From positions 1-37,063 of the IMG/VR virus record IMGVR_UViG_3300037586_005480: a stretch of DNA of 37,063 nucleotides, one strand, 5' to 3'. A program made the position numbers and the translations under genes. This stretch comes from a virus. The notes below the pieces were generated by a model. The model saw nothing but the letters and a program-made list of their open reading frames with translations, did no database searches and had not been told where the DNA came from. Shown here in pieces: positions 10,766-37,063 of this stretch (the stretch's first letter is position 1; every line of letters starts with the position of its first letter).

Positions 10766-11113
10766 ATGAAAATCACAAAGAGGCAGCTTAGACAGCTTAT
10801 TGTCAGTGAGGCCTCATCTTATCAAATGGCAAAGTATGATGAACAGTCGAATAACATCATGATGTTGACTGGTATCATTATGACAGGCATGCAGATGCAA
10901 ACGGGTAGCGAGCTAGATGAGGACGACGAGTATGAGTACGGTCAGGAAGTTAGATATCAGCTTGAAAAGTATCCAGCACTTACAGATTTTCTAGCCGGAG
11001 TATTTACGGAGATTAAATCAGGTGGTCGATTTCCTGTAACATCTGGTGTAGAAGATGTCGAAGCTGAAGATGAGACTCGTATGGATCTAGGCTATAAGGG
11101 AGACTATTCATGA
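10766..11113 (+). CDS. N-terminally tagged hypothetical protein
   Basis: 115 aa starting MKITKRQLRQLIVSE, the first of a long series of proteins sharing this N-terminal tag. After the tag the sequence is unrelated to other members: a hydrophobic helix rich in Met (IMMLTGIIMTGMQMQ, about residues 31-45) and an acidic second half. No clear L/I-x-E cleavage site follows the tag closely, except IVSE itself. Probably packaged or targeted by the tag. It overlaps the next gene's ATG by 4 nt. Confidence 0.72.
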   Translation: MKITKRQLRQLIVSEASSYQMAKYDEQSNNIMMLTGIIMTGMQMQTGSELDEDDEYEYGQEVRYQLEKYPALTDFLAGVFTEIKSGGRFPVTSGVEDVEAEDETRMDLGYKGDYS

Positions 11114-11757
11114 AAATCACAAAGAGACATCTAAGAAGAATCATTAAAGAGGAGCTATCATTACTTGTAGAGCAGATCGATCAAAAGACCGGTCGTGAAC
11201 TATACTATCCGCCAGGTGAGCCAGGGAGTGGTGTGGGTGATCGGAGGCTTACATATATTCGTGATCAATTTAAGTCGTTGGGCTTTGACGTAGAGGATAG
11301 AGCTACGAGAGAGACATCAGGATCCCCGATAATATATGTTTTTGGTCCACCAGCAGGATGGGAGTGGTACTTCATGGGGCCTGATCAGGGTGTTCCCAAC
11401 TATCAAGTCACAATCGGTAAGTCTTCTGAACCCTGTGAAGGCTACGACAGCAAATCACCCAACTGGGGTAAAGTCCGAAAAGAGTGCTTTGAACCCAGGG
11501 CACGTGCATTTGTTGATAAAATTGCAGAAATCATGTCTCGCCTGGAATTCAAGGCTAAGTCATTTGATAGAGACACAAGAGTAGACGAGGCACCGCACTA
11601 TGCCATATTCTACGGAGCGAGCATAGAGGGATCATCGAAACCTAACAGCAGTAACATCTTAATGACGATATTTGCAGCCGGCGGGAACATGGCGACGAAC
11701 GCTAGAATTTCATTTGAATTAGTAGGGGAGCCATCAGCCTTGAGGCCGGAGGACTGA
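11110..11757 (+). CDS. N-terminally tagged hypothetical protein
   Basis: 215 aa. Tag MKITKRHLRRIIKEELSLLVE with a possible prohead-protease-type site LVE|Q at residues 19-21. The remaining 190 aa form an alpha/beta domain with no recognised family. Residues about 80-120 (FGPPAGWEWYFMGPD) are Gly/Trp-rich. Two Cys flank a GYDSKSPNWG loop. Second gene of the operon at 10766. Likely a virion-internal or injected protein, by tag only. Confidence 0.72.
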   Translation: MKITKRHLRRIIKEELSLLVEQIDQKTGRELYYPPGEPGSGVGDRRLTYIRDQFKSLGFDVEDRATRETSGSPIIYVFGPPAGWEWYFMGPDQGVPNYQVTIGKSSEPCEGYDSKSPNWGKVRKECFEPRARAFVDKIAEIMSRLEFKAKSFDRDTRVDEAPHYAIFYGASIEGSSKPNSSNILMTIFAAGGNMATNARISFELVGEPSALRPED

Positions 11758-11782
11758 TGGCAACGTATAACTGGACAACTAC

Positions 11783-12157
11783 ATGAAGATAACACGGCGC
11801 CAGCTAAAGAATATCATAAGAGAGGAGACAAGACAGTCACTCTTAGAGTCACACGATGACTATCACTTTGGCTTCGGTCCTGAGGAGAGGTACGAGGTGA
11901 CAGGTGAGGAATCTCCAGACGTAGACCTATCAGATCGTGTTAGAGAGTTATACGATGCCTGGACCCCTCAGACCCCGGAGGGAGTAAGGTATAAGGTGCA
12001 GTTAGGTGAGCTCATAGGCATACATCCTGAAGAGGAGGAGGATGTATCTGAGGAGGAGCTAGAGGATATAGAGCCTATCCGGCTCTCCGCGCCCAAGTCC
12101 CAGGCAGAAATAGATCGTCTCGCCTATGGAGTGAGAACTGGTCGCTGGAGGAGATAA
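11783..12157 (+). CDS. N-terminally tagged acidic protein
   Basis: 124 aa with tag MKITRRQLKNIIREE followed by SLLE|S. The body is acidic (EEEEDVSEEELEDIE near residue 80) and ends basic (GVRTGRWRR). The tag is basic and amphipathic, contrasting strongly with the body, as expected of a removable propeptide. Function unknown. Confidence 0.7.
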   Translation: MKITRRQLKNIIREETRQSLLESHDDYHFGFGPEERYEVTGEESPDVDLSDRVRELYDAWTPQTPEGVRYKVQLGELIGIHPEEEEDVSEEELEDIEPIRLSAPKSQAEIDRLAYGVRTGRWRR

Positions 12158-12160
12158 CAC

Positions 12161-12469
12161 ATGAAAATGAGGAGACATCAGCTAAGTGAGATCATAAGGC
12201 GGATCATCCTTGAGCAGGATGCGCAGCATACAGTTCCTGCCACACACCTCATACTTGTCGGTACTCCTTGTGATGCCATCTCTGGATTACCAAACATGTG
12301 GGTGCTTGAGGCTCGTGTGACTACAGTAGAGGGTGGCACCATTGTTGACACACAAAGCGTAAGAGGTGCAACTAGCGCGGAAGATGCCATTGCAAAGATA
12401 CAGCCATGGGTAGAGCAGATGAAGACGAAATATCCCCAGGCTAAGCTAGCAGATCCAGAAGCACCTTGA
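12161..12469 (+). CDS. N-terminally tagged hypothetical protein
   Basis: 102 aa starting MKMRRHQLSEIIRRIILEQ, with IILE|Q as the likely processing site. The body is a compact alpha/beta domain: THLILVGTPCD, WVLEARVTTVEGG, EDAIAKIQPWVEQM. This resembles small double-psi or PepSY-like folds but no family can be named. Spaced 3 nt from the preceding stop. Confidence 0.7.
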   Translation: MKMRRHQLSEIIRRIILEQDAQHTVPATHLILVGTPCDAISGLPNMWVLEARVTTVEGGTIVDTQSVRGATSAEDAIAKIQPWVEQMKTKYPQAKLADPEAP

Positions 12470-12483
12470 TGAGGAGATAGTTA

Positions 12484-12897
12484 GTGAAGATATCAAAGAG
12501 CCAGTTAAGACATCTCATACTTGAGGATATCCACATGCTGACAGAAACAGCAACTAGCGTACCGGGTGCTGTTGAGATACCTCTGTCAAAGGTTCCTGGT
12601 ATGGACTGGGATGACATGGAGATACTACCTGCCGGTGTCGTTGGGAGATATCTATTAGATTTTGACCAGCGCATACGAAATATTGAAAATCACATAACTT
12701 CTGACCAGATGCAGATGGCCAGGCCTGCCAATCTCCCGGAGGCAACCCACATAGTGCGAGAGACGATCCGTGAGCTTCCGGACGGGAGGTATAGGTTAGT
12801 ATCTAAGGCGGGTAAGAACCTTGGAACGTATGACACTAGAGAGGATGCAGAGAAACGTGAGAAACAGGTGAATTACTTTAAGAGTAAAGACGACTAG
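12484..12897 (+). CDS. N-terminally tagged hypothetical protein
   Basis: 137 aa from GTG 12484, with GAGGAG 10 nt upstream. Tag MKISKSQLRHLILEDIHMLTE with LTE|T at residues 19-21. The C-terminal part RYRLVSKAGKNLGTYDTREDAEKREKQV (in pieces about residues 101-130) looks like the GRYRLVSKKGKVLGTFDTKEKAEKREKQV motif I recall from many phage and bacterial small proteins. Last gene of the first tagged operon. Confidence 0.74.
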   Translation: MKISKSQLRHLILEDIHMLTETATSVPGAVEIPLSKVPGMDWDDMEILPAGVVGRYLLDFDQRIRNIENHITSDQMQMARPANLPEATHIVRETIRELPDGRYRLVSKAGKNLGTYDTREDAEKREKQVNYFKSKDD

Positions 12898-12990
12898 CTA
12901 GCTCTACGTTTTACTGTAAAAATTTTTCAAGGGCCAAAAATTTTCGAATCCTCGCGGCGTAAATAAAATATAAAAACTATGATCTTTTTA

Positions 12991-15815: not shown

Positions 15816-16223
15816 GTGAGGATTACACAAAATGAACTTAGAAGAATTATTCTAGAGGCATTTGAAGAAATAGAGAGTGAAGAAGTCACAGATGAGACTG
15901 AAAGCTCTAATCTATTTGATGCTCCAGAGCCTGCAGCTCTTCAAGCTATGCAAAGACGTGAAGAAGAAATGAGATCTAAAGAGCGATGGGGATCTCTATC
16001 TGATGAGGCTTTTGATGTGTCTATTAATCTTATTCAATCTAGGACTCGTGGTTCAATTGATCCAATAGCACGGCTATATATGAAGGTTAGAGATATTGTT
16101 CACTCATCTGACACGGGTGAAGAAGCATGGCCTAGAGAAATAGAGATACAAGAAGGGTTTGATGCAGCCCTAAGCAGTATTATCCATAGAACTGTACTGG
16201 CGTATGATGAGGGAGAAATATAA
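15816..16223 (+). CDS. N-terminally tagged acidic protein
   Basis: 135 aa. GTG 15816 chosen over TTG 15804 because GGAG (15806-15809) lies 6 nt upstream of it and because the protein then begins with the tag MRITQNELRRIILEAFEEIE. The body is acidic and helical. A DPIARLYMKVRDIV segment lies near residue 83. Function unknown. It overlaps the next start by 1 nt (TAATG). Confidence 0.7.
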   Translation: MRITQNELRRIILEAFEEIESEEVTDETESSNLFDAPEPAALQAMQRREEEMRSKERWGSLSDEAFDVSINLIQSRTRGSIDPIARLYMKVRDIVHSSDTGEEAWPREIEIQEGFDAALSSIIHRTVLAYDEGEI

Positions 16224-16510
16224 TGAAAGTCTCTCAGAAAATGCTTAAGAGGCTTATTAAAGAAGTCTATGAGGATTCAGAGAGAGAATATGAAATTCTT
16301 CAAGCATCTGAGAATCTGGCTTCAACATTATCATCTGAGTGGAGTAAAGAAGAGGCATATAAGATTATAGTTTATGCTGCAGATATACTTAATCCTGGAT
16401 CATATAGTCCTAGTGAAGAAGAAAAAGAAGAATTTATGACAGAACCTTTTCCAGGATCAAGAAAAATTCCTGTCGGATCATTAAGCTGGAGAGATCGTGA
16501 GAGTAACTAA
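16223..16510 (+). CDS. N-terminally tagged hypothetical protein
   Basis: 95 aa starting MKVSQKMLKRLIKEVYED. No strong L/I-x-E site directly after the tag. The body is acidic and helical with a Pro/Ser-rich end. Coupled to both neighbours by overlaps (16223; 16497-16510). Function unknown. Confidence 0.68.
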   Translation: MKVSQKMLKRLIKEVYEDSEREYEILQASENLASTLSSEWSKEEAYKIIVYAADILNPGSYSPSEEEKEEFMTEPFPGSRKIPVGSLSWRDRESN

Positions 16511-17006
16511 AAAATATCTTAGAGAGATTATATTAAACGAGATTAACAACATCGTCACAGAGATGTGCGGTCCTTGTGCTGCTGGAGCTGAAGGTGATGG
16601 ACATGGTGATGTTAATCTTATGTCTAGAGTTTCACCTGACGTACTTCCTGATGATGGACCTGGTTCTCCACTTACAAAACAAGAAGCACTTAAGGCTGTT
16701 ATGGCTATAGCAAATGATACATCATGCCCTGTGACTAGATCTGCACTTGAAGATATTGTTAATAATCTTTCCAGTGAGCAGGAATATGAAGATCATGACT
16801 ATGATACGGGAATGGAAGTTCTCCACAGTGATCATGGCGGACAATCATGTGGTGAAGCACATCCCAGTGAATCTCATGATAGCTGGGTATCTGGGGGACA
16901 GGCGAGAGTTCCTAATTTAGGAAGCCTAGATCCTCATTCAGCATTTGGCCCGGGACATGGTGTGGGTTCAGGTGAAATAAATGACTACACTATCTCAGGA
17001 GAATAA
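16497..17006 (+). CDS. N-terminally tagged Cys/His/Asp-rich protein
   Basis: 169 aa from GTG 16497 after GGAGAG. Tag MRVTKKYLREIILNEINNIVTE with VTE|M. The body begins CGPCAAGAEGDGHGD and is rich in His, Asp and Gly (GDGHGDVN, DHDYDTGMEVLHSDHGG), suggesting metal binding. A short helical domain (LTKQEALKAVMAIANDTS) lies in the middle. Function unknown. Confidence 0.7.
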   Translation: MRVTKKYLREIILNEINNIVTEMCGPCAAGAEGDGHGDVNLMSRVSPDVLPDDGPGSPLTKQEALKAVMAIANDTSCPVTRSALEDIVNNLSSEQEYEDHDYDTGMEVLHSDHGGQSCGEAHPSESHDSWVSGGQARVPNLGSLDPHSAFGPGHGVGSGEINDYTISGE

Positions 17007-17281: not shown

Positions 17282-19450
17282 ATGAAAGTATCTGATAAAA
17301 ATCTTTATCTTATTATTGAGAGCTCTATTATAAGAGGCAGAAAGTTAGAAAAATACTCTACACTTCTGTCAAGAAAAATAGTTCAACTATTAAAAGATCA
17401 AGAGATAAGAGATACCTTATCATCTATTTCACCTGACAAAGAAATTCAACTCAAAAATCCTTTGGAAATAGATTCAATAATTTCTGATCTTGATAATATT
17501 AGAGATTTTTATATTGTTCTCTCAACAAACGATGAAAACTATGCTGACATAGCAGGAAACTATGTTTTTAATACGACTAATAGAGAAAATTCAGACTTTT
17601 ATATGGTTATTGATCTTCCAAGAGATTATGAATTTTCTCTATTTTCTATTTTAATACCTGAGCTTAAAGAAACAATTAGGCATGAGCTAGAGCATAGCTC
17701 TGATGACACAGAGACACTAAGCATTCCACCAGATGATAAGTGGAGCAGTTTAGAAAATCTATTAGATCACTTTATTAGTGAGGCTGAAACAAAAGCATAT
17801 GTGACTGGACTTTATAAAAAAGCAAAGATGACAAAAAGCTCAGCACTAGATGTGATTGATCAATATCTTTTAAATGTATACAATATTGCAATCAGCCTTG
17901 GTTATTCTAGAAATGATCTGGACCCGATTATGAAAAAAATCAGAGATAGGTGGGTAGATTATTTGATAAAAAGATATCCAAAAGCTAGACTAAATGAATT
18001 AGTCTTGCTAGAAGAAGATAAAAAATCTCCCGGTGCGGGAATTGTTGTTGTAAGAAAAATTGACAATGAATGGAAGGTATTGGGATTAAAAATATATGGA
18101 AGATATGATATTCCTAAGGGAAAAATTGAATCAGGTGAATCAAGCCTTGATGCAGCTGTTAGAGAGACAATTGAAGAGGCTGGAATATCGGATTTAAATT
18201 TTAGATGGGGACTTTCAAGCATAAAGGCAAATCATGTAACACTCTATATAGCACAGACATCACAAGAAGGTGAAATAAAGCCAAATCCAGAGACAGGAAT
18301 ATATGAGCATCACGGAATTAAGTGGATGTCTTGGGAAGATCTTCAATATAATATTCACCCATATCTTGCACACGCTATATCATGGGCAAAAGATATAGTA
18401 GAATCTCAGCTAACCATAAATGAAAGAAAAAAGAAAAAGAAAAAAGAAAAACTTAAAAAATCTGGATCTCATCCAGAAGAAGCGTACGAATTGGGAACTA
18501 AAAAAAATCTATATCTTGACAGACCAACATCGCATGGAGGTTGGCCCGAAGGTCCTAGTAAGAGCTTTACAAGCAACAAACCTGTGAATATTCAAATCTC
18601 TAGCTGGCTCAAAAATATGGGAATGATGGAAAAAAATGTTTTAGAGAAAATTATATCAAGAATATTAACAGAAAATATATCATATTTTGGAGGTGGGTTT
18701 GCTAACTTTAAATCTCTTATTGATTCTGGTATTCATCCTATTGAGGCTGCAGAAGAATCAGGGTTCAAGAGAGTACAGGGTGGATATAGCAGGTTTGTAT
18801 ATGAACATCCCACTGCCGGAGAATTTGTTCTAAAGATAGCACATGGAATGGGAAATTCATGGAGAAATGCTAATACATGGGCAGATGAAACAGCAGATGA
18901 GAATGCCGGAAATATAGATCTCGCTAGAAGAACAAATGTAGCAGAAGCTCAGAGTGGCAAGAATAGCTTATTTGACATATTTCCAAAAGTTTATCCAGGA
19001 GATCCCGAGGGTAATTGGATACTTTCAGAGAAAGTTAATACACTCAATAGCGCAAAAGAGATGTCAGAGTTCTTTCCGGAAATAAGTTTTCCGGCGGGCC
19101 AGATGATGTGGATACTTCTTTTAGATATGGGTTCTAAATACGCAAAAGAAATGAAGGAGCTTCATGATGTCGGTGACTGGGATGCAGAGCCGGATAAATT
19201 TAATAAGAGTGTTGAACAATTAAGCACCAATCCCATGGGACAGAAAGTTGTACAAAAATTTACAGAGCTATGGAAAAATCCCACGTTTAGAGAAGTTTCT
19301 AAAGCTATGTCTTACTTTGGAATAGCTCCACATGAAATGAGATATGATAATGTTGGATATGTTATGAGAGACAAAAAGAAGCAGTTTGTGATTCTTGATG
19401 TCAGTGTTGGTCTTGGAGGAGGCTCAAGTGAAAATACAACAGAGTTTTAA
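17282..19450 (+). CDS. Fusion: HExxH peptidase-like, Nudix hydrolase, internal tag, kinase-like domain
   Basis: 722 aa. The N-terminus MKVSDKNLYLIIESSII is a variant tag. Residues about 40-200 contain H134-E-L-E-H138 with a downstream EAETKAY that could give the third zinc ligand. Residues about 250-370 are a Nudix domain with an intact box G280-x5-E286-x7-R294-E-x-x-E-E-x-G301. A Lys-rich linker (about 380-400) follows. At residues 449-464 a second tag-like segment MEKNVLEKIISRILTE|N occurs. The C-terminal domain (about 470-722) has Gly-rich and Lys518 features (RFVYEHP, FVLKIA) and a late HEMRYDNVG...FVILDVS pattern (H684, N690, D706) reminiscent of protein-kinase-like folds. It may be a polyprotein cut at the internal site. 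Domain order and Nudix box are direct; kinase fold is tentative. Confidence 0.78.
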   Translation: MKVSDKNLYLIIESSIIRGRKLEKYSTLLSRKIVQLLKDQEIRDTLSSISPDKEIQLKNPLEIDSIISDLDNIRDFYIVLSTNDENYADIAGNYVFNTTNRENSDFYMVIDLPRDYEFSLFSILIPELKETIRHELEHSSDDTETLSIPPDDKWSSLENLLDHFISEAETKAYVTGLYKKAKMTKSSALDVIDQYLLNVYNIAISLGYSRNDLDPIMKKIRDRWVDYLIKRYPKARLNELVLLEEDKKSPGAGIVVVRKIDNEWKVLGLKIYGRYDIPKGKIESGESSLDAAVRETIEEAGISDLNFRWGLSSIKANHVTLYIAQTSQEGEIKPNPETGIYEHHGIKWMSWEDLQYNIHPYLAHAISWAKDIVESQLTINERKKKKKKEKLKKSGSHPEEAYELGTKKNLYLDRPTSHGGWPEGPSKSFTSNKPVNIQISSWLKNMGMMEKNVLEKIISRILTENISYFGGGFANFKSLIDSGIHPIEAAEESGFKRVQGGYSRFVYEHPTAGEFVLKIAHGMGNSWRNANTWADETADENAGNIDLARRTNVAEAQSGKNSLFDIFPKVYPGDPEGNWILSEKVNTLNSAKEMSEFFPEISFPAGQMMWILLLDMGSKYAKEMKELHDVGDWDAEPDKFNKSVEQLSTNPMGQKVVQKFTELWKNPTFREVSKAMSYFGIAPHEMRYDNVGYVMRDKKKQFVILDVSVGLGGGSSENTTEF

Positions 19451-20565: not shown

Positions 20566-20940
20566 ATGAAGATCACACGTAGACAATTAAGACAGGTAAT
20601 CAAGGAAGAACTAAGCATTGTGATTAATGAGGGCAATGATGAAACTACCTATAAACTTGTCACAGAAAAAATAATTGAAAAATTAGGCGAGCTAGCTGGT
20701 GAACAAGTACAAAAAGGTGCCTTTACATACGAAATATATAAAGGACAGAAGGGTAGCTACTATCAATTCAATATAGTTAATAAGCAATTTCATATGAAAG
20801 CACAACAGTCCGCACTTAAACAAAGCACAGATATCCAAAGAGAAGCTAGCAAAATTGTTAGAGAGCATTTAGATCTAGATGAATCCGATAAGCCTGTTTA
20901 CTATGGAACCAATGACTATCACTCTTGGAAGCTAAAATGA
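20566..20940 (+). CDS. N-terminally tagged hypothetical protein
   Basis: 124 aa. Tag MKITRRQLRQVIKEELSIVINE with INE|G at residues 20-22. The body is alpha/beta, Lys/Gln-rich (FTYEIYKGQKGSYYQFNIV), with a helix QSTDIQREASKIVREHL and a short C-terminal strand. No family recognised. The tag DNA is nearly identical to that of the next two genes. Confidence 0.72.
   Translation: MKITRRQLRQVIKEELSIVINEGNDETTYKLVTEKIIEKLGELAGEQVQKGAFTYEIYKGQKGSYYQFNIVNKQFHMKAQQSALKQSTDIQREASKIVREHLDLDESDKPVYYGTNDYHSWKLK
20575..20609 (+). repeat. Tag-encoding 35-bp repeat, copy 1
   Basis: ACACGTAGACAATTAAGA, then 6 variable bases, then ATCAAGGAAGA. Shared with 20946 and 21431. 31 of 35 positions agree with copy 2. 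Confidence 0.85.
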
Positions 20941-21422
20941 AAATAACACGTAGACAATTAAGACGACTCATCAAGGAAGAGATATCCCACCTTACCGAGA
21001 CCGAGCACGATGAAGGAGATGAGCCTTACAAGCCAGGCTCGTACAAGGCAAAGGGACACTGGGAAGAGCGCTCGCCAGGGACGCGGACATATGTTTCGCC
21101 TCCCCGCCCTGATCCTTCAAAACCTGAGCCCATCCCTATAGAGGAACTCACGTGGCAACCTGATAAGGACGGTAACATGAAGGTATCTGACGCCGGGGGC
21201 GGAGACTGGTGGAGTACACTCGACTCAGAGGATGACCTCCCACTGTGGAAAGAGCAGGTGGCCTCTCACGGCCCTGGCTCAACGGTGGTCTTTACCGGGC
21301 GACCAGAGCTGCCCGGTCTGACCGGCCGATGGACCTACCACTCCGGTCCCTGGGCCGAGAAGTCCCACGCATATCAGAGCGCGAAGGCGGCCACCCTTGC
21401 CAAGTGGGGAACCACTTGGTAA
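20937..21422 (+). CDS. N-terminally tagged protein in a GC-rich island
   Basis: 161 aa from ATG 20937, which overlaps the previous TGA. Four extra residues upstream (from 20925) are unlikely because the tag MKITRRQLRRLIKEEISHLTE starts here. LTE|T follows. The body is Pro/Gly/Trp-rich (TWQPDKDGNMKV, GRWTYHSGPWAEKSH), and its bases are clearly more GC-rich than those of its neighbours, hinting at a recent graft onto the tag. No family recognised. Confidence 0.72.
   Translation: MKITRRQLRRLIKEEISHLTETEHDEGDEPYKPGSYKAKGHWEERSPGTRTYVSPPRPDPSKPEPIPIEELTWQPDKDGNMKVSDAGGGDWWSTLDSEDDLPLWKEQVASHGPGSTVVFTGRPELPGLTGRWTYHSGPWAEKSHAYQSAKAATLAKWGTTW
20946..20980 (+). repeat. Tag-encoding 35-bp repeat, copy 2
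   Basis: 33 of 35 bases equal copy 3 at 21431. Confidence 0.85.
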
Positions 21423-21730
21423 TGCGTATCACACGTAGACAATTAAGAAGGCTCATCAAGGAAGAGGTTCAAGGTATCCTTGAGGCTGGAAAGGGCGGAT
21501 CAGCTGACGTAGCTTATCCGGGTGATCTTGGTATTCCAACTCCTGCAGGAGAAAATATAGACGAAGAGGACGCTGCAGCCCATGGAGAGGAAGAAGAAGA
21601 TGTTGATGATGAGATCCGAGCAACAACTGCAAAAATGCAAACCGACAAAGGAGCTCAAGCGACAGTTGACAGAGACCAGCTAAGAATGCTAACTCAAAAA
21701 CAAACTGACCTAGCTGATGTTTCAGGATAG
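21422..21730 (+). CDS. N-terminally tagged acidic protein
   Basis: 102 aa from ATG 21422, overlapping the previous TAA. A longer reading from 21245 lies inside the upstream gene. Tag MRITRRQLRRLIKEEVQGILE with ILE|A. The body is acidic (EEDAAAHGEEEEDVDDE), then helical. Likely a removable basic tag on an acidic cargo. Function unknown. Confidence 0.7.
   Translation: MRITRRQLRRLIKEEVQGILEAGKGGSADVAYPGDLGIPTPAGENIDEEDAAAHGEEEEDVDDEIRATTAKMQTDKGAQATVDRDQLRMLTQKQTDLADVSG
21431..21465 (+). repeat. Tag-encoding 35-bp repeat, copy 3
   Basis: Third near-identical copy. The distances between copies are 371 and 485 bp, so this is not a tandem array but gene-start duplication. Confidence 0.85.
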
Positions 21731-21819: not shown

Positions 21820-22089
21820 ATGAAGATTTCAAAGAAAAAATTAATGAGAATAATAAGTGAAGAAATTTCACTTATTAAGGAGTCTGGAGATCTAGAAGAG
21901 GGAAGGTTTGGCTCACTAGCAAAGGCTATCGCGACACCGCTAGTACCAGGTGGTAGATTTATTTCAGACTATTCTCAAGCTAGAGGGTTTGATGAATTAG
22001 AGGACTTTGCTGGGGATGCAGAGTCTAAACTAGCAGATCTTGAACAAAGGGTCGCTGCCATAGAGTCTCTTATACAGTCGGCTCCATAG
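21820..22089 (+). CDS. N-terminally tagged hypothetical protein
   Basis: 89 aa. Tag MKISKKKLMRIISEEISLIKE with IKE|S. Then a Gly-rich loop (LVPGGRFISDY) and a C-terminal coiled-coil-like helix (ESKLADLEQRVAAIESLIQ, residues 68-86). AT-rich codons again. Function unknown. Confidence 0.7.
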   Translation: MKISKKKLMRIISEEISLIKESGDLEEGRFGSLAKAIATPLVPGGRFISDYSQARGFDELEDFAGDAESKLADLEQRVAAIESLIQSAP

Positions 22090-22659: not shown

Positions 22660-23310
22660 ATGAATACAGTTGATGCAAATTCCAATTATATAAGAAAGAT
22701 CATACTAGAAGAAAAACAAATTCTACAAGAGCACGTCAGGCATAAAGAGGCATGCCTTAGAGAGGCCTGTAGAATGGCAGAGGAAGGATATACGCAACAA
22801 CAAATCAATGAAGGCATTTGGGACGTAATAAAGGGATTCGGCGGCGGATTCATTGAAACATTTAAATATGATATAGCTCAATGGATAATAGGAAAACTAG
22901 GGTTTGATGAACAAGGATTTTTAGCAAGAGTTGTTGCAAACCTAATTGAGAATACATCTATTGAAGAATTTAAAGATATGTTTACATCAGCTGGATGCCA
23001 GGTATTTGCTGATAACTTTATAGATGCTATAGCAGAAACTGGTGTCGAGCCTGTCATAAATAGTGTTATTGATGCACTAGGAATGGATCCCGATTCAAGA
23101 TTGAATGCTTCACTTAGAGAGTATCTCACAAATTCTCTTCTCAGGGGAGACCTAGCAGATGGGCTAAAAGAAAGAATTAAAAATATGGTCTGCGAATTTG
23201 ACGTGGGTGAGGCACTATCAGGAACAAGTGACGTAGCTAGCGGACTGTGGGATAGAGCAAAGAGCTTTTTTAGTGGTGAAGATGATAGACAGCAATCATT
23301 TAACTTCTAG
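22660..23310 (+). CDS. Tagged alpha-helical protein, unknown
   Basis: 216 aa starting MNTVDANSNYIRKIILEEKQ, a longer variant of the tag, with ILQE|H and then INE|G at residues about 50-52. The remaining part is a helical domain with amphipathic segments (FIETFKYDIAQWIIGKLGF, EPVINSVIDALG) and an acidic, Gln-rich tail. Possibly a virion protein that interacts with membranes. No family recognised. Confidence 0.7.
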   Translation: MNTVDANSNYIRKIILEEKQILQEHVRHKEACLREACRMAEEGYTQQQINEGIWDVIKGFGGGFIETFKYDIAQWIIGKLGFDEQGFLARVVANLIENTSIEEFKDMFTSAGCQVFADNFIDAIAETGVEPVINSVIDALGMDPDSRLNASLREYLTNSLLRGDLADGLKERIKNMVCEFDVGEALSGTSDVASGLWDRAKSFFSGEDDRQQSFNF

Positions 23311-26249: not shown

Positions 26250-26929
26250 ATGAGGAAATTCTAAGACAGATGATAAGAGAGGTTTTAATAACTGAGAAGC
26301 TAAAGAGTGTTTATGATACAGGAAGAGCGCCTGACAGACAAACAGCTTCAACCTCTACTAGTCGAAGGGAGTCTACGGGAGATGTGAAAATAAATAAAGA
26401 TAACATAGGAAATGGACCATCTGATAGCTCTGGAATACGAAGTGGTGTCAAAACTACTGACGCAATATTATCTGCGTGGAACTGGCTAAGGCCATTTCTT
26501 CCATCAGGTGCCATCATGACGTCAGGTGAGAGAAGTCAATCAGATCAAGATAGGACAATAAGAAATTATGCTGATAGAGAAAATATAACCTATAGTGATC
26601 TTGATGATGCTGTTGAGAAATTACGTGAAAAAGGTTTTGTCATAGCGAGACATGTTTCTACTGGTGGGGGCAGAGGGCATGGAACAGGATTAGCATTTGA
26701 TATATCTGGAGCAAGACTAGAGGACATAAAGAAGTCTATTGAGTTCGCCACTAACAATGGATCAATACATGTAAAATTTAATCCTTTCGGAAGTGGTGAT
26801 GATCCCTCTATAGTTGAAGAAACAAACAATGCAGTACATGCTGTTATAAAATCTGTTCAGGTATACAGCAATAGAGACATGGTGGCATTTGTAGACTCAG
26901 CAACAGGAGCCGATACAGCGACCGCGTAG
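26246..26929 (+). CDS. Tagged peptidase M15-like hydrolase
   Basis: 227 aa, overlapping the previous stop by 4 nt. Tag MNEEILRQMIREVLITE|K. A Ser/Thr-rich linker (about residues 25-60) leads to a hydrolase domain with SGERSQSDQDR and the GRGHGTGLAFDIS motif (about 137-149), as in M15 D-Ala-D-Ala peptidases (SxHxxGxAxD), and a later SIHVKF histidine. Likely cuts peptide stems of peptidoglycan, either in the virion for entry or at lysis. The twin tag at 26950 suggests the two act together. Confidence 0.72.
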   Translation: MNEEILRQMIREVLITEKLKSVYDTGRAPDRQTASTSTSRRESTGDVKINKDNIGNGPSDSSGIRSGVKTTDAILSAWNWLRPFLPSGAIMTSGERSQSDQDRTIRNYADRENITYSDLDDAVEKLREKGFVIARHVSTGGGRGHGTGLAFDISGARLEDIKKSIEFATNNGSIHVKFNPFGSGDDPSIVEETNNAVHAVIKSVQVYSNRDMVAFVDSATGADTATA

Positions 26930-26949: not shown

Positions 26950-27681
26950 ATGAATGAATATCTTCTAAGAAATTTAATACGAGAAGTTTTACTAACTGAG
27001 AAGCTAAAGGGTTTAGAAGGCTGGGTTCACGGAGAGGAGCGTGGATCGCTAGGGTATGAAGAAACATTTGAAGATGTCACATCAGATACAACAGATGCTG
27101 CACTTAATGCCGAACAGGAGCTTTCAAGCTGGGGAAATGCTGTAGAGACTGATCCGGAAGTTAGAGATACTTTAGTTAAGTATTGGAGAAATATTCCAGG
27201 AGAGGATCCAGATAGAAATATAGAAATTAGAAGACCATGGAGTGCTGCATTTATTTCCTGGATTCAGCGAAATGATCCAGAATTTCAGGGATCAAGGGGT
27301 CACAGCACATATATGAGACTGGCAAAGCAATCTAGAGATAGAGGCAAACATCATGGTGGATTTGTTGCATTTCAACCTCATGAGCTACCAGCAGGTCCGG
27401 ACAGAGGTGACCTTGTGTGCAGACCCAGAGATGGATCAGGAAATGGATGGGATCAAATAGGTAGCTTTAATCACTGTGACATATATACCGGCAATAATAG
27501 GATGATAGGAGGAAATGTCAATGATAATATTGACACAGTATCATATTCTCCTAGCAGAGCTACAATGATCATTAAAAAACTCAATCCAGCTGGATCCTTT
27601 GACATTTCAGAATCTGAGACTAGAGATATTATAAGTGAAATTATTTCTGAGATGCTTGACGAGGTATGCGAAAAGGTCTAG
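26950..27681 (+). CDS. Tagged DUF2272-like (NlpC/P60-like) cell-wall hydrolase
   Basis: 243 aa. Tag MNEYLLRNLIREVLLTE|KLKG, nearly the same as that of 26246. The body has RPWSAAFISWIQRNDPEF, SRGHSTYMRL, GPDRGDLVCRPRDG and FNHCDIYTGNNRMIGGN, the ordered motifs of DUF2272 proteins, which are related to papain-like peptidoglycan hydrolases. The C-terminal acidic helix (ETRDIISEIISEMLDEV) is unusual. Probably a virion-carried muralytic enzyme. 26930-26949 contains the hairpin ACCGCGTAGCGGT. Confidence 0.76.
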   Translation: MNEYLLRNLIREVLLTEKLKGLEGWVHGEERGSLGYEETFEDVTSDTTDAALNAEQELSSWGNAVETDPEVRDTLVKYWRNIPGEDPDRNIEIRRPWSAAFISWIQRNDPEFQGSRGHSTYMRLAKQSRDRGKHHGGFVAFQPHELPAGPDRGDLVCRPRDGSGNGWDQIGSFNHCDIYTGNNRMIGGNVNDNIDTVSYSPSRATMIIKKLNPAGSFDISESETRDIISEIISEMLDEVCEKV

Positions 27682-28547: not shown

Positions 28548-29341
28548 ATTAGGTCTATTCCTAGTTCTATAGATGCTTTTTCTAAAAACTCTATAAGACT
28601 ATTTTGACCAACTCCCATGGCTATAGAGTCAAATCCTCTTGCTGTCATTTGAATCATTCCTACTGCTCTTTTATTTTTATCAAAAACTATGCTTCCTGAA
28701 CTACCAAAGGTAGCTGGGATGGTATAGAAACATATATTATTTCTTTCATCACATCCTGAAAATTTTCCATCAAAGTGAAGAGCGACACCTTTTGATGAAA
28801 TTCCCAATGGAGAAGAAATAGAATAGACTTTTTCTCCTATCTGCGGCATAGATTCTGATATTTTTATCTCTCTAACATTTTGTATGCTAGACTTTACAAG
28901 ACAGAGATCAGATTCAATGTCAACAAATACTATTTCAGATTGCCACGCATTTCCATTTATATCAAATGACCATAAATCTACAGTAATAGTATCTGAAACA
29001 ACATCATCAAAATATGAAAATTCTGAATACATGTCTGGTCTACAAAAATGAGCTGCAGTTAAAATATAAGTTGAGTCATCTATAGATTTAAAGCCAAGTC
29101 CTGAGGCTGTAGCTTGTCTTTTAAATGCTTCATCATGACATTCTTCACCAGAATCTATTTCTAGACAAGTATTTTCTCTATATTGTGTCATTATTAAATT
29201 AAAGAAATTTTCTTTAGGAAGCTTCTCTCCGTACAGTACTGAGGATATTGTAAATATCAGTCCTATTACTGTTATTGAAAGAACAGATATTCTTATAAAT
29301 GATCTTTGAAAATTTTCATATTTTTTGGAGATTGTCATCAT
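28544..29341 (-). CDS. Membrane-anchored trypsin-like serine protease
   Basis: 265 aa on the minus strand. N-terminal membrane anchor (about residues 14-37, SFIRISVLSITVIGLIFTIS) and a periplasmic S1-type domain. The full triad is visible: H98 in ILTAAHFC, D145 in ESDLCLVK, S215 in ATFGSSGS. It resembles HtrA/DegP-like trypsin folds without a PDZ domain, so about half their length. It could cleave host envelope proteins or defend against other phages. Met2 is an alternative start. Divergent from the yeaH operon by 205 nt; that gap (29342-29546) is AT-rich with no other gene. Confidence 0.82.
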   Translation of the reverse strand: MMTISKKYENFQRSFIRISVLSITVIGLIFTISSVLYGEKLPKENFFNLIMTQYRENTCLEIDSGEECHDEAFKRQATASGLGFKSIDDSTYILTAAHFCRPDMYSEFSYFDDVVSDTITVDLWSFDINGNAWQSEIVFVDIESDLCLVKSSIQNVREIKISESMPQIGEKVYSISSPLGISSKGVALHFDGKFSGCDERNNICFYTIPATFGSSGSIVFDKNKRAVGMIQMTARGFDSIAMGVGQNSLIEFLEKASIELGIDLI

Positions 29342-29546: not shown

Positions 29547-30713
29547 ATGTCAATCTTCAGAAATCATAAAACCTCAGCTGATCGATCAGCAACAGATAGG
29601 AGCAGGCACAAGAAAAAGATACGAGATGCAATAAAAGAAGGTATTCATGATATAGTTTCAGATGAATCAATTATCGGTCAAGACGGAAAGAAGAGAATTA
29701 AAATACCAGTCCGAGGAATAAAAGAGTATAGATTTGTTTACGGAAATAATGAAAAAAACAAGAGTGCTGGATCTGCTCCAGGTAAAAATATAAGAAAAGG
29801 ACAGAAGATAGGATCAGGAAAGAAAAAAGAAAAGGACGGCGACGGAAAGGCAGGAAATAAAGAGGGTGAAGAGATTTATGAGGTTGAAATTACACTAGAA
29901 GAACTATCGTATTATCTTTTTGATAATTTAAATCTACCAGAGCTTGAAAAGAAAAAGTTTAAAGATATGGTGGGTGATAAAATAAAAAGAAAAGGATATA
30001 GGTCAAAGGGGATAAGACCTAGACTTTCAAAGAAAGAGACCCTCAAGAATAAAATCAGAAGAAAAAAGGCTACAGCATATACGGGAAGCCTAGATAGAAA
30101 TAAAGATGAGAGATTTCCATTTCATAAAAATGATCTAAAGTATAGACATATAGATGTAAAACCTAAGGAAAATAGTAATGCTGTTATATTTTTTGTAATG
30201 GACACCTCAGGGTCTATGACAAAAGAAAAGAAGTTTATGGCTAGGTCATTTTTCTTTTTACTTTATCATTTTTTAAGACACAAATATGAAAATGTAGAAA
30301 TTGTATTTATTTCTCACACTATTTCAGCAAAAGAAGTAAGTGAGAATGACTTCTTTAAGCGAGCAAGCTCAGGAGGCACATTACTATCTTCAGGAATTGA
30401 AAAGTGTCTTGATATTTCAAAGAAAAGATATCACCCAGATGCTTGGAATATTTATACATTTCACTGTAGTGATGGAGATAATTGGCCAGAAGATAATGCT
30501 AAATCCATAGATCTATCTCACACGCTAAAATCTATTTGTCAGCTTTATTGTTATATTCAGATTGTTCCAGAAACAGATAGAATCGCATGGACTGAGGGAG
30601 GAATGGCAACAGTATATTCTGAACTTGAAGACGCTAAGTTCAGAATTGTGAATTTAGAATCGCCAGATGATATTTGGCCACAATTTAAGAAAATTTTTGG
30701 AGGAAAGCAATAA
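29547..30713 (+). CDS. yeaH: YeaH/UPF0229 (DUF444) von Willebrand factor A protein
   Basis: 388 aa, full length. An N-terminal basic region with DESIIGQDGKKRIKIPVRG is followed by a Lys/Gly-rich stretch and a VWA domain with the MIDAS residues DTSGSM (219-224), a GGT and SDGDNW. In bacteria YeaH is encoded with the kinase PrkA/YeaG and SpoVR/YcgB and is expressed in starvation; its biochemical role is not settled. Here it starts a three-gene operon, unusual for a phage. Its stop overlaps the start of spoVR by 1 nt. Confidence 0.92.
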   Translation: MSIFRNHKTSADRSATDRSRHKKKIRDAIKEGIHDIVSDESIIGQDGKKRIKIPVRGIKEYRFVYGNNEKNKSAGSAPGKNIRKGQKIGSGKKKEKDGDGKAGNKEGEEIYEVEITLEELSYYLFDNLNLPELEKKKFKDMVGDKIKRKGYRSKGIRPRLSKKETLKNKIRRKKATAYTGSLDRNKDERFPFHKNDLKYRHIDVKPKENSNAVIFFVMDTSGSMTKEKKFMARSFFFLLYHFLRHKYENVEIVFISHTISAKEVSENDFFKRASSGGTLLSSGIEKCLDISKKRYHPDAWNIYTFHCSDGDNWPEDNAKSIDLSHTLKSICQLYCYIQIVPETDRIAWTEGGMATVYSELEDAKFRIVNLESPDDIWPQFKKIFGGKQ

Positions 30714-32020
30714 TGTCTAATTGGAATCTTGATGATTTAAGTGAGTGGGATGACAAGATTTGTAATCTTGCAGAAAAATATGGACTAGACTGGCACAAGA
30801 TAAACTATGAAGTCTGCGACTATTATGAAATGATTGGACACATGTCGTATCACGGTGTTCCTTCACACTACAATCACTGGTCATATGGAAAGTCATTTGA
30901 AAGAACTCATCAGCTATACAATGCAGGAGTGGAAGGATTGCCGTACGAATTGATCATAAATTCTGATCCATCAATAGCCTATCTAATGAAAGAAAATCCA
31001 TTCTATCTTCAGATACTAATAATGGCTCATTGTGTAGGACACAGCGATTTCTTTAAAAATAATAGAGCATTTAAAAATACAAGGCCTGATATTATTGTAT
31101 CCAGATTTAGAAATGCAAAAAAAAGAATCCAAGGCTATATTGAAAATCCAAATATAGGAATAGATTATGTTGAAACATTTCTTGATGCTCTTCATACTGT
31201 AAGATTTCAAACAGAGAGAAATAATATAAGGCGCCTATCTAAAAAAGAAATTGAACAAAAATATGTAAATATTATTAATAATGATAAAACTGAAAAGTAT
31301 AAAAATTTTGACATAGATAAAGATCTTCTAGAGCCAGATTATGATTTATTAGGGTTTCTTATAGAGCACGGAACACACTTTAAAGATTGGCAAATTGATA
31401 TATTGAATATCGTTAGAGATGAATCTCATTATTTTATGCCGCAGATAAAGACAAAAATAATGAATGAAGGATGGGCGTGCTTTTGGCACTATAAGCTATT
31501 AAATGAATTAAATTTACCACAGTCATGTCATATTCCATTTTTAAAATCTCACAATCAGGTTGTCAGGCCACATCTTGGAAAAATAAATCCGTATCATCTG
31601 GGTTTCTTTTTATTTAAAAAGCTTGAAAAAGACTTAGGAATAGATGAGTGCTTCTTTATAAGAGAAATTCATGAGGATGAGTCGTTTATAAGGTGCTATT
31701 TAGATCTCGATGCGTGTAGAGATTTAAACTTATTTACATACTCTACAAAAAAAACCGGAATAACAATAGATGATGTATCTGATGAAGAGAGTTGGATTTC
31801 TGTTAGAGACGGATTAATTAAGAATATAGGATTAAATTCAATTCCAAGGGTTTTTGTATCCGATATATCAACCTCAGGTGATTTAATACTGGAACATGAT
31901 CATGATGGAAGGGACTTGGAATTAGACTATGCAGAAGAAGTTGTTAGAAAAATACAGACAATCTGGCCCAAAGATGTTAAATTTTTTACTATTATTGAAG
32001 AAGAACCTTGGGAAATATGA
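30713..32020 (+). CDS. spoVR: SpoVR family protein
   Basis: 435 aa, slightly shorter than the usual 470-510. Family hallmarks are present: HWSYGKSFERTHQLYNAG, PYELIINSDPSIAYLM, MAHCVGHSDFFKNN and DESHYFMPQIKTKIMNEGWA. SpoVR was named for spore cortex formation in Bacillus but occurs widely next to prkA and yeaH in bacteria that do not sporulate. Start overlaps the yeaH stop (TAATG). A role with the kinase is inferred from conserved gene order. Confidence 0.93.
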   Translation: MSNWNLDDLSEWDDKICNLAEKYGLDWHKINYEVCDYYEMIGHMSYHGVPSHYNHWSYGKSFERTHQLYNAGVEGLPYELIINSDPSIAYLMKENPFYLQILIMAHCVGHSDFFKNNRAFKNTRPDIIVSRFRNAKKRIQGYIENPNIGIDYVETFLDALHTVRFQTERNNIRRLSKKEIEQKYVNIINNDKTEKYKNFDIDKDLLEPDYDLLGFLIEHGTHFKDWQIDILNIVRDESHYFMPQIKTKIMNEGWACFWHYKLLNELNLPQSCHIPFLKSHNQVVRPHLGKINPYHLGFFLFKKLEKDLGIDECFFIREIHEDESFIRCYLDLDACRDLNLFTYSTKKTGITIDDVSDEESWISVRDGLIKNIGLNSIPRVFVSDISTSGDLILEHDHDGRDLELDYAEEVVRKIQTIWPKDVKFFTIIEEEPWEI

Positions 32021-32042
32021 TATAATAGGTGTGGAGGAGTAG

Positions 32043-33971
32043 ATGAAGAAGAAAAGATTTTTAAATATTATTGAAAGTCAAAGAGAAGAAAAGTGTGATG
32101 AAAAGTTTGAAGGAACATTTCTTGACTATCTAGAGATAGTAAATGATAATCCGGAAATAGCTAAGCTTTCTCATAAGAGGCTTTATGATACTATTACTTC
32201 TCACGGAATCACTGTTATGTGTGATTCTAATCCTAGAAAGCGAAAGCTATTTGATGGAGATAATGTAAGAGTATATGAATATTTTCAAAATGATTTTTTT
32301 GGAATGGACAGAGTATTAGAAAAAGTCATGAGATTTTTACGATCTGCTGCCTTGAGAGGCGAGGAAAGTAGACAAGTTCTATTGTTAATGGGTCCCGTCG
32401 GAGCTGGAAAATCAGCACTCATCGAACATATAAAGAAGTCAATAGAAGGAGAAAAGTTTTATCATTTAAAAGGTGATCCCCAGAGAGGAGAACCCCTTCA
32501 GCTAATACCCAGAGGGTTAAGATCAAAATTTGAAGAGATGTTGGGAATAAAAATTGAAGGAGATATCAGCCCAGTTGCTAGATATAAGCTTTTAAATGAG
32601 TATGATGAAAAATATGAGACATTCCCAGTTCAGGAATCTACGTTTTCACAAAGAGCTAGAAGGGGAATAGCATCTGTTCCTCCAATGGACGCAAATAGTC
32701 AGGATGTTGGTGTACTTATAGGATCTGAAGATATATCAAAGCTTGATAAATACTCTGAAGATGACCCTAGAGTTCTATCTTTAAATGGCGCATTTAATGT
32801 TGGAAATAGAGGTATTGTAGAGCTTGTTGAGGTTTTTAAAAATGAGATAGAATTTCTTCATACAGTCATAACAGCCACACAAGAAAAGAGAATACCATCT
32901 CCTGGAAAGCATGATATGCTTTATTTTGACGGTGTTATACTTGCTCATTGTAATGAAGCAGAGTGGAATAAGTTTAGATCTGAACATACAAATGAGGCTA
33001 TTCTTGATAGAATAGTAAAAGTTAATGTGCCATATATTCTTGAACTTGATCAGGAGATTAAGATTTATGAAAAGCAATTAAGGAGATCAGACTTTAATTC
33101 TCATATAGCTCCTCATACTTTAAAAATAGCATCGATGTTTTCAATTTTATCTAGGCTGAGATATTCACAAAAGTGTGATATTCTAACAAAGCTAAAGATT
33201 TATAATGGTGAAGATGTAATTGAAAAAGGAAGAGTTAAAAAGATAGACATAAAGGACCTTAGAGATGAAGCTCGTGACGAGGGCATGGATGGAATCTCAA
33301 CAAGATTTATAATGAAATCCATAGATAGTGCATTATCAGATTCTGATAAGAATATGGTTACACCTAATGCAATAATGGAATCTTTAATACGTCAAGTAAA
33401 AGAACAGATCATATCTGATGAAGATAAAGATAGATATCTAGAAATACTTCAAAAAATAATAAGAGAAGAATATCTGAAGATACTTGAAAATGAGATAGCA
33501 AAGGCTTTTATAACTGCATATTCAGAACAGGCACAGTCATTATTTGACAGCTATCTAGATAATGCTGAATGTTACACTACAAGAACAACTGTAAAGGATA
33601 GTATAACAAAGGAAGAAAGAGAGCCTGATGAGCATTTCATGAAATCAATAGAGGAGCAAATAGGAATAACTGGATCGTCTGTTGACGGATTTAGAAGTGA
33701 TGTAACAGCATATATGTTTGCCAAGATGAGAAGAAAGGAAAAGGTAAATTATAAGAGCTATGGCCCGCTTAGGGAGGCGCTTGAAGGATACCTTATAATG
33801 TCTGTGAAGGATATTTCTAGAATAGTAACCAAAAGTAAGTCTAGAGATGATGAACAAAGAAAAAAGTATAGTGAAATGATAAGAACACTTATAGAGGAAT
33901 ACGGATATAATGAGGATTCTGCAGAGGAAGTTTTAACATTTGCTGCAAATAACCTCTGGAGAGATTCATAG
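32043..33971 (+). CDS. prkA: PrkA/YeaG serine protein kinase (AAA+ ATPase)
   Basis: 642 aa, full length. Walker A GPVGAGKS at residues 117-124. The PrkA N-terminal region with FFGMDRVLEKVMRFLRSAA, HLKGDPQRGEPL, and IPSPGKHDMLYFDGVILAHCNEAEW is typical of the family, as is a C-terminal helical domain. It is reported as a serine kinase or AAA+ protease in bacteria and responds to nutrient stress. It follows spoVR by 22 nt, with GGAGG upstream. As part of a phage operon it could keep the host in a state that supports replication during starvation. That role is inference. Confidence 0.94.
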   Translation: MKKKRFLNIIESQREEKCDEKFEGTFLDYLEIVNDNPEIAKLSHKRLYDTITSHGITVMCDSNPRKRKLFDGDNVRVYEYFQNDFFGMDRVLEKVMRFLRSAALRGEESRQVLLLMGPVGAGKSALIEHIKKSIEGEKFYHLKGDPQRGEPLQLIPRGLRSKFEEMLGIKIEGDISPVARYKLLNEYDEKYETFPVQESTFSQRARRGIASVPPMDANSQDVGVLIGSEDISKLDKYSEDDPRVLSLNGAFNVGNRGIVELVEVFKNEIEFLHTVITATQEKRIPSPGKHDMLYFDGVILAHCNEAEWNKFRSEHTNEAILDRIVKVNVPYILELDQEIKIYEKQLRRSDFNSHIAPHTLKIASMFSILSRLRYSQKCDILTKLKIYNGEDVIEKGRVKKIDIKDLRDEARDEGMDGISTRFIMKSIDSALSDSDKNMVTPNAIMESLIRQVKEQIISDEDKDRYLEILQKIIREEYLKILENEIAKAFITAYSEQAQSLFDSYLDNAECYTTRTTVKDSITKEEREPDEHFMKSIEEQIGITGSSVDGFRSDVTAYMFAKMRRKEKVNYKSYGPLREALEGYLIMSVKDISRIVTKSKSRDDEQRKKYSEMIRTLIEEYGYNEDSAEEVLTFAANNLWRDS

Positions 33972-36129: not shown

Positions 36130-36357
36130 ATGAAAAAATATGGCAAATCTGAAGAGGATGTTAGAGTAGAGAAAAAAGCTACATCTAGAGAGATTGTTAA
36201 AGAAATTATTGACTTTGGAGTCAATGAGAATCAAAAAATTCAAATAATAAAGTTAATTTCAATGGAATTAGAAGATATTAATTTAATGAAGAGAATAATT
36301 AATTGTATTAAATTAATCAATGATAATGATGAACCTAAAAAATTGATAGAGGTTTAA
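36130..36357 (+). CDS. Small helical hypothetical protein
   Basis: 75 aa starting at ATG 36130, 3 nt after the preceding stop. Basic N-terminus (MKKYGKSEEDVRVEKKATSR), then a helical bundle (IVKEIIDFGV, IIKLISMELEDINLMKR). No motif. Co-transcribed with its neighbours. Function unknown. Confidence 0.68.
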   Translation: MKKYGKSEEDVRVEKKATSREIVKEIIDFGVNENQKIQIIKLISMELEDINLMKRIINCIKLINDNDEPKKLIEV

Positions 36358-36369
36358 CAGGAGAAAAAC

Positions 36370-36552
36370 ATGTCAGATCTATTAGATAAGTGGAGCGAGT
36401 TAAAGGTTTTGGTCGAGAGTCTTGACCTTGATCTTCATAAGAATGCAAATGGGAATAAGTCAGCAGGCGTAAGAGCTAGAAAAGGACTTAGACTTATTAA
36501 GAAGCAGGTGGGAGATCTTGTAAAGAGCTCCCTGTCTGTTGACAAAGAATAA
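36370..36552 (+). CDS. Histone H1-like (Hc1-type) small DNA-binding protein
   Basis: 60 aa from ATG 36370, AGGAG upstream. The pattern LKVLVESLDLDLHKN then GNKSAGVRARKGLRLIKKQV matches the GNKAAGxRxRKGLxxLKK core of bacterial H1-like Hc1 proteins (chlamydial Hc1, small Bacteroidetes H1). The protein is the size of that core without the Lys/Ala-rich tail. It probably binds DNA as a helical hairpin and could compact phage or host DNA. Its TAA ends 1 nt before the tmRNA. Confidence 0.78.
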   Translation: MSDLLDKWSELKVLVESLDLDLHKNANGNKSAGVRARKGLRLIKKQVGDLVKSSLSVDKE

Positions 36553-36553
36553 T

Positions 36554-36893
36554 GGGCCCGAAATGGTATCGACAGGGTAGCTAAGGAGTATAAGAGTGCA
36601 GGTGACCTCAGGGAACAGCTGGTCTAAAGAGCGGTTTCAAAAACCATAATTGCCAATAACAATTATTACGAACAGCGGTTAGCCGCTTAATCGGGTGGTT
36701 GTCTAAAACCATCTATCCAATTTAGGCTAAGTGAAGTAGCATCACTGAAATAAAATAATGCTCGAATCTCAGTCCGTGAATGAGAGGGTTTACCAGCGGA
36801 AATTTTGTTAGTTTAGAAAAACTGAATAAACCTGTGAATGACTTGATCCCAGAATTGCTTTGGACGCGAGTTCGACTCTCGCCGGGTCCACCA
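36554..36893 (+). ncRNA. ssrA: Transfer-messenger RNA (tmRNA)
   Basis: A complete tmRNA of about 340 nt. 5' GGGCCCG pairs with 3' CGGGTCC, followed by ACCA. The T-arm is GCGAG-TTCGACT-CTCGC (36866-36882) and a D-arm-like ATGGTATCGACAG follows the acceptor. The tag frame starts at GCC 36652 and reads ANNNYYEQRLAA, stopping at TAA 36688-36690; the LAA end is the ClpXP/ClpAP degron. CCA is encoded. Phages rarely carry tmRNA. It would release stalled ribosomes and tag their products during infection. Confidence 0.95.
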
Positions 36894-36919
36894 TTTTAAG
36901 AACATCTACTTGTAACATA

Positions 36920-36928
36920 ATAATTATA
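36920..36928 (+). promoter_or_regulatory. Candidate non-early promoter element (ATAATTATA)
   Basis: Lies 18 nt before the last tagged gene. It is the ATARTTATA variant seen at 17250. Confidence 0.42.
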
Positions 36929-36946
36929 GACAGAGATTTTTTTATA

Positions 36947-37063
36947 ATGAAAATCACAAGAAACCAGCTAAGGTGTCTCATCAAGGAAGAGTTGCTATCT
37001 GAGTGTGCCGGAGATAATTCACGGCTAGCAGACATCATGAATCCGATGTTTAACGTCAGGGAG
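36947..37063 (+). CDS. N-terminally tagged protein, truncated by the window end
   Basis: Starts ATG 36947. The visible 39 residues begin MKITRNQLRCLIKEELLSE, with LLSE|C as a likely cleavage site, and continue with an acidic loop. It shows that the tag family continues beyond the window, after the tmRNA. The rest is outside the sequence given. Confidence 0.72.
   Translation, partial: MKITRNQLRCLIKEELLSECAGDNSRLADIMNPMFNVRE

Follow-up and report, generated by a model that had tools for sequence, protein, structure and literature searches.

The 37,063-base window examined here is the entire IMG/VR record IMGVR_UViG_3300037586_005480, a linear fragment of viral DNA in which 18 genes were listed as starting with variants of one short peptide, the tag. 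A preliminary description of the sequence had read this tag as a removable peptide that addresses many otherwise unrelated proteins to the phage prohead. All 18 listed starts translate as stated and 14 of them (marked 'profile' in the list below) exceed the cut-off of 8 bits in a 16-column profile, which was seeded with 12 window tags and iterated across the window and ten related sequences. The other four genes (17282, 22660, 26246 and 26950) carry weaker variants. The tag of gene 26246 is matched by a hidden Markov model (HMM) of the tag, that of gene 17282 is weak by itself and is backed by homologues with clear tags in three other phages, and those of genes 22660 and 26950 are recognized by motif alone. 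Tagged genes are clustered in the window, with 10 adjacent pairs vs. 2.7 expected. In the list a slash separates the tag from the residue that follows it.

10766..10810 (+), tag MKITKRQLRQLIVSE/A of a 115-residue protein (translation, profile)
11110..11172 (+), tag MKITKRHLRRIIKEELSLLVE/Q of a 215-residue protein (translation, profile, L/I/V-x-E site)
11783..11848 (+), tag MKITRRQLKNIIREETRQSLLE/S of a 124-residue protein (translation, profile, L/I/V-x-E site)
12161..12214 (+), diverged tag MKMRRHQLSEIIRRIILE/Q of a 102-residue protein (translation, profile score 14.5)
12484..12546 (+), tag KISKSQLRHLILEDIHMLTE/T of a 137-residue protein, GTG start (translation, profile, L/I/V-x-E site)
15816..15857 (+), tag RITQNELRRIILE/A of a 135-residue protein, GTG start (translation, profile)
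16223..16264 (+), tag MKVSQKMLKRLIKE/V of a 95-residue protein (translation, profile)
16497..16562 (+), tag RVTKKYLREIILNEINNIVTE/M of a 169-residue protein, GTG start (translation, profile, L/I/V-x-E site)
17282..17320 (+), diverged tag MKVSDKNLYLIIE/S of a 722-residue NUDIX-containing protein (G006, G012 and G007 homologues with clear tags)
18638..18673 (+), possible internal tag VLEKIISRILTE/N at residue 453 of the same 722-residue protein, between NUDIX and C-terminal domain (by eye, without profile score)
20566..20631 (+), tag MKITRRQLRQVIKEELSIVINE/G of a 124-residue protein (translation, profile, L/I/V-x-E site)
20937..20999 (+), tag MKITRRQLRRLIKEEISHLTE/T of a 161-residue protein (translation, profile, L/I/V-x-E site)
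21422..21484 (+), tag MRITRRQLRRLIKEEVQGILE/A of a 102-residue protein (translation, profile, L/I/V-x-E site)
21820..21882 (+), tag MKISKKKLMRIISEEISLIKE/S of an 89-residue protein (translation, profile, L/I/V-x-E site)
22660..22710 (+), variant tag MNTVDANSNYIRKIILE/E of a 216-residue protein (motif only)
24174..24266 (+), variant tag NIHEQRLRALVREE...RILNE/A of a 691-residue protein, GTG start (profile, score 18.8)
26246..26296 (+), variant tag MNEEILRQMIREVLITE/K of a 227-residue protein with a weak VanY-like match (tag HMM E = 0.015; VanY E = 0.069)
26950..27000 (+), variant tag MNEYLLRNLIREVLLTE/K of a 243-residue DUF2272 protein (motif; DUF2272 E = 7.9e-12)
29547..33971 (+), DUF444, SpoVR and PrkA genes, a bacterial stress-kinase set (55-75% identity to tagged giant phages)
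36947..37003 (+), tag MKITRNQLRCLIKEELLSE/C of an open reading frame (ORF) truncated at the contig end (translation, profile)

One further tag-like N-terminus, MKNIDKIVKLVVEELGRMEKK, possibly lies at 23325-23555, outside the preliminary list; it was read by eye only.

Across the window and the ten related sequences, 276 tagged ORFs score above 8 bits; the top score of reversed sequences, the control for this cut-off, is 1.2 bits among about 23,000 candidate starts. The HMM at E < 0.05 matches 298/2,589 N-termini vs. about 17/6,722 internal segments, several of the latter being true internal tags. Two types occur, type 1 (MKITKRQLRRIIREE) and type 2 (MNLLREYIRELLxE). Residues 1-10 have a mean charge of +3.7 (+0.6 in untagged genes), and hydrophobic residues recur at positions 8, 11/12, 16 and 19/20. 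The claim that the bodies behind the tag differ holds well: they are mostly unrelated, and clustering them gives 207 groups, 155 with a single member. A short N-terminal peptide common to proteins with unrelated bodies is thus present, as in the T4 type of targeting.

The tag is not confined to the 37-kb fragment. Collecting tagged proteins from relatives, a check proposed in the preliminary description, gave 12-48 tagged genes in each fetched contig of at least 100 kb, and many viral contigs of 100-293 kb are among the matches listed for a degenerate DNA pattern of the tag. By a narrower profile, other tagged records have 2-29 tagged genes each, and 11 large records chosen without regard to tags have none. 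The window belongs to this lineage of tagged giant phages, since its PrkA, SpoVR and DUF444 proteins share 55-75% identity with their counterparts in G002, G004, G006, G007 and G011. PrkA is encoded in 7/7 tagged records above 240 kb, and the PrkA proteins of the window and giant phages are less than 34% identical to those of cultured phages. Judged by sequence, the tagged contigs are uncultured giant relatives of phage T4. Their capsid homologues lie in contigs binned to several unrelated bacterial metagenome-assembled genomes, so no host is assigned. A literature search on the tag strings returned no paper containing them, with poor coverage of subscription papers.

The preliminary description had named the lack of a prohead protease as grounds for rejecting a removable tag; close relatives encode both an S77 (gp21-type) protease and a gp23-type capsid protein. 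The S77 protease (PF03420) is present in 17/30 tagged records, including all of at least 140 kb, and the gp23-type capsid gene occurs in the same 17 (17/17 co-occurrence). The 13 tagged records without S77 lack the capsid gene too, so they are fragments in which the absence of the protease goes with missing head genes. S77 is also found in 5/11 untagged control records, a rough base rate because the controls were picked by an acidic-repeat DNA pattern that may be biased towards scaffold genes; the tag therefore marks a subset of S77 phages. The head genes are ordered portal, a conserved gene, S77 protease, core1, core2, further genes, gp22-like scaffold (charge -28 to -69) and capsid. The small core genes of T4 sit roughly at the core1/core2 position. 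No tag is present on the portal, terminase, protease or capsid genes; core1 and core2 start with diverged tags. The typical core1 start is M-A-K-[IL]-[ST]-[KR]-x-x-LK-x-[IL]-[VI]-K-ECLVEIL-x-E, the tag ending in IL-x-E followed by G, S or A (mostly G), and the tag HMM matches core1 in four phages (E = 4e-4 to 0.03).

The capsid protein itself contains a motif of the same kind. Ten capsid proteins share the block ENQA-x-Q-[VL]-L-[RK]-E, apart from minor changes; the next residue is A, S or Q, and beyond it the sequence varies. In the G006 capsid protein, residue 80 aligns with residue 91 of T4 gp23, which is residue 26 of mature gp23; the T4 cut lies 25 residues before this aligned point and the end of the G006 motif 20 before it. 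The motif [VL]L[RK]E/[ASQ], near the T4 gp23 cut position, equals the tag's I-[RK]-E followed by A or S. From the alignment with T4 gp23, the capsid maturation site appears to carry the cut motif of the tag, as it would in a T4-type system.

Within the tag, two complementary cut-like motifs are found. The first, overlooked by the preliminary description, is the end of the tag itself: [ILVMF]-x-E occupies residues 12-14 in 243/267 tagged proteins, of both types, a gp21-type [L/I]-x-E ending as in T4-type targeting sequences. The second corresponds to the L/I/V-x-E sites quoted in the preliminary description, which are present behind the window tags. In the pooled relatives, [LIV]xE occurs within residues 16-32 of 164/267 tagged proteins vs. 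65 ± 7 after shuffling. A second [LIVM]xE at about residues 16-25 depends on residue 15, being present in 97/127 tags with Glu15 and in 24/74 with Ala, Gly, Ser or Thr15 (Fisher p = 1e-9); the same Glu15-dependent downstream excess is absent when Q, K, S or T replaces Glu in the motif. A (19/97) and Q (18/97) are over-represented behind the second site; the capsid cut motif has A, S or Q behind it. Nearly all window tags with E14 and Glu15 have a second site (24174 only at residue 31); tags 15816 (Ala15) and 16223 (Val15) have none. The motifs suggest two possible cut positions, residue 14 and residues 19-22, which refines the site given in the preliminary description.

Module boundaries follow the tag ends. 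Over residues 15-235, window protein 17282 is matched by stand-alone tagged proteins (240-247 residues) of G006, G012 and G007, whose N-termini read ...SLLFE/AVITGRKLDRY, ...LVISE/AIITGRKLDRY and ...TLLLE/KSLSGRNLERA respectively; the window counterpart is ...LIIE/SSIIRGRKLEKY. As the tags in these three homologues end exactly where the shared body begins, the homology of 17282 starts just past x-E. The NUDIX part of 17282 is a separate, untagged gene in G006. The HMM search of internal segments gave 17 internal tag matches. Locus L269 encodes a poly(A)-polymerase/CCA-adding-type protein that has tag-like stretches both at its N-terminus and in its interior. It also encodes a HAD_SAK_1 protein, behind which come tag-like junctions and a weak acetyltransferase match. 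Tag types also differ on a homologous body. The body family GDVILTGRFKNKRT carries a type-1 tag in G004, G011 and G012 and a type-2 tag in G007, so the two types look exchangeable; automatic sorting of types mislabels some pairs, and only this clear case is used.

On these grounds the tag is probably a T4-type capsid-targeting propeptide. The comparative evidence supports the removable prohead-targeting peptide proposed in the preliminary description, short of proof; the sequences establish that the tag exists and is widespread, that a protease and a capsid gene accompany it, that the cut-like motifs complement each other, that tag types change on a homologous body, and that internal tags occur. 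Several points count the other way. About a quarter of Glu15 tags have no second site near residues 16-27, and some of the regular L/I spacing could stem from the turns of a helix and not from cleavage. The head genes are absent from the window fragment. The T4-type late promoter TATAAATA was not found upstream of tagged genes; since no part of these genomes is enriched in it, this check gave no answer. Synonymous codon identity within tags is above codon-usage expectation in every genome tested (0.66 vs. 0.46 in G007), which leaves room for some nucleotide-level constraint and also fits shared DNA ancestry.

The regular spacing, together with the amphipathic character of the tag, would also suit a helix that recruits proteins to the prohead core, or to a different phage assembly, and is not removed, the L/I-x-E motif then being helix periodicity; the tag is modelled as a helix, at low confidence, in one tagged protein. 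This is unlikely, as the second motif is Glu-specific and residue-15-dependent, the residues past it resemble those past the capsid cut, and homologous bodies start directly after x-E. That the tag addresses another site in the cell (membrane, replication compartment, or RNA in the manner of a lambda-N-type arginine-rich peptide) is more doubtful still. Complete co-occurrence with a T4-type head module and diverged tags on genes between the protease and capsid gene both speak for the head, even if the N-terminus is basic and much of the recognizable cargo looks enzymatic, of a kind that could work inside the cell during infection. Very little favours a DNA or RNA leader element (a translation or recombination signal) with an incidental peptide: the residues hold while synonymous sites still vary widely, type-1 and type-2 sequences differ and have the peptide pattern in common, and internal tags occur away from start codons, all of which outweigh the raised synonymous identity. 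Clustering of the tagged genes aside, their descent from one family that kept only its N-terminus can practically be dismissed, given 207 body clusters (155 single), unrelated Pfam domains, and homologous bodies with the other tag type or without a recognized tag.

Recent copying of tags within a genome was considered and dropped, because synonymous identity is about equal within and between genomes; only shared ancestry of the tags can be claimed.

If the tag is a capsid-targeting propeptide, its basic amphipathic helix would dock on the prohead core during head assembly, possibly on the gp22-like scaffold; electrostatic docking is plausible because the tag is basic and these scaffolds are acidic. 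Tens of unrelated tagged proteins would thereby be enclosed together with the core. The S77 protease would then cut after [L/I]-x-E at residue 14 or, where residue 15 is Glu, at the second site, near residues 19-22. Once released, the cargo would stay in the head and enter the next host along with the DNA.

In T4 the internal proteins IPI, IPII, IPIII and Alt carry a capsid-targeting sequence cut by gp21, at MKTYQEFIAE/A in IPII and IPIII and at MKTFKEFTSTTTPVSTITE/A in IPI. The tag has the MK start and terminal [I/L]-x-E in common with MKTYQEFIAE and differs in the rest (compared by eye only); T4's own tags vary, and likeness to MKTYQEFIAE is not defining. Apart from the targeting sequence, the highly diverse internal proteins of T4 have nothing conserved in common (PMC3012670), and T4 propeptides of 10-20 residues are removed by gp21 (PMC5694885). 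Both systems have a short N-terminal peptide on unrelated small proteins, an [L/I]-x-E end, an S77 protease, a gp23-type capsid, and short and long forms (10 and 19 residues in T4). The tag differs in being another peptide of 14-22 residues, in its two types on a homologous body and its internal tags, and in number: each large fetched contig has 12-48 predicted cargo proteins, nearly all without known function, vs. T4's handful. We call the system a greatly expanded and, on sequence grounds, new variant of T4 capsid targeting, built on another peptide that far more proteins bear. In the giant phages SPN3US and phiKZ, too, a prohead protease cuts behind x-E to remove N-terminal propeptides from numerous inner-head proteins, but these propeptides are mostly longer than 100 residues (PMC5694885) and are not one short common tag. 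The N-terminal 30 residues of P1 DarB suffice to bring a reporter into the head, but Dar N-termini have no consensus (PMC9024508), unlike the strong consensus here.

A cultured relative, Flavobacterium phage immuto (NC_055915), encodes a capsid protein with 46% identity and an annotated S77 protease. It has at least two related tags, MKKSQLRQIIKEA (gp080, E = 7.5e-7) and MKKSQLREIIRKEL (gp094, E = 1.4e-4), with a weaker gp084 match, and differs in having fewer tags of the giant-phage type. Another recurrent N-terminus, MKKQILSEQFxRMQxLAGIITES, ends in ITE/S, and MENxFDLKKFLVEN occurs on two proteins; these N-termini (L256:25061-25456, L254:11675-12139) are possibly immuto's own targeting sequences. 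The immuto tags were found by profile, after a short tblastn search for the tag in cultured phages had given as its sole match an uncultured 484-kb record. This phage, LR756508, has about ten tags near an S77-like protease and capsid gene (L255:5000-28000).

Most of the 161 tagged proteins scanned have no Pfam match. The matches in tagged proteins of relatives include Zeta/AAA kinase, polynucleotide kinase, HAD, RNase T, PAP2, tRNA ligase CPD, ribosome modulation factor, HD_4 and DUF192; the tagged bodies of the window itself contain NUDIX (17282) and DUF2272 (26950) domains. The predicted cargo includes RNA-repair-type enzymes, a CCA-adding-like enzyme and HD hydrolases. The cell-wall enzyme cargo of the preliminary description is established in part: DUF2272 at 26950 is clear and the VanY-like match at 26246 is weak. 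Comparing 24174 and 26246 with solved structures yielded no useful match. One tagged family has the YRG...S-W-[ST]...E-x-E pattern of ADP-ribosyltransferases, read by eye. Its model (predicted local distance difference test score, pLDDT, of 63) has top Foldseek matches mostly of the ADP-ribosyltransferase class, none below E 0.04, so that model and structure search agree weakly and the family is a possible ADP-ribosyltransferase, a lead. T4 Alt is an internal protein of this class.

A broader proposal, which we put forward tentatively, is general protein delivery by one exchangeable peptide module that has come to sit on tens of genes and also inside ORFs. Heads would be loaded with dozens of enzymes, some as polyprotein strings cut by the same protease. 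The predicted cargo, namely polynucleotide kinase, HAD RNA-repair domain, CCA-adding-like enzyme, HD hydrolase and a possible ADP-ribosyltransferase, would be active ahead of phage gene expression, for example against host tRNA-cutting defences. If the capsid-targeting reading itself is right, each particle may bring a large ready-made protein set into the infected cell, and with a simple peptide search many phage genes of unknown function could be predicted to encode injected proteins, among them probably factors that counter host defences or take over the cell. It would also provide a loading tag ready to use for another phage group, and phage immuto makes the idea testable.

Elsewhere in the window, HExxH motifs (RHELEH, SHEVAH and AHELTH) in the genes at 17282-19450, 23518-24075 (-) and 27678-28100 (-) suggest zinc metalloproteases, and 28544-29341 (-) gives a weak HtrA-like serine protease match. 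A complete phage-encoded transfer-messenger RNA (tmRNA) lies at 36554-36893 (Rfam 101 bits, tag peptide ANNNYYEQRLAA); tmRNAs are found near PrkA in G004 and G011 as well. At least 15 copies of CGTGCAA-N~14-TGTGGTATAAT, promoter-like, precede small genes at 700-9540, a stretch richer in GC (53-61%) than the rest of the window (about 30-50%).

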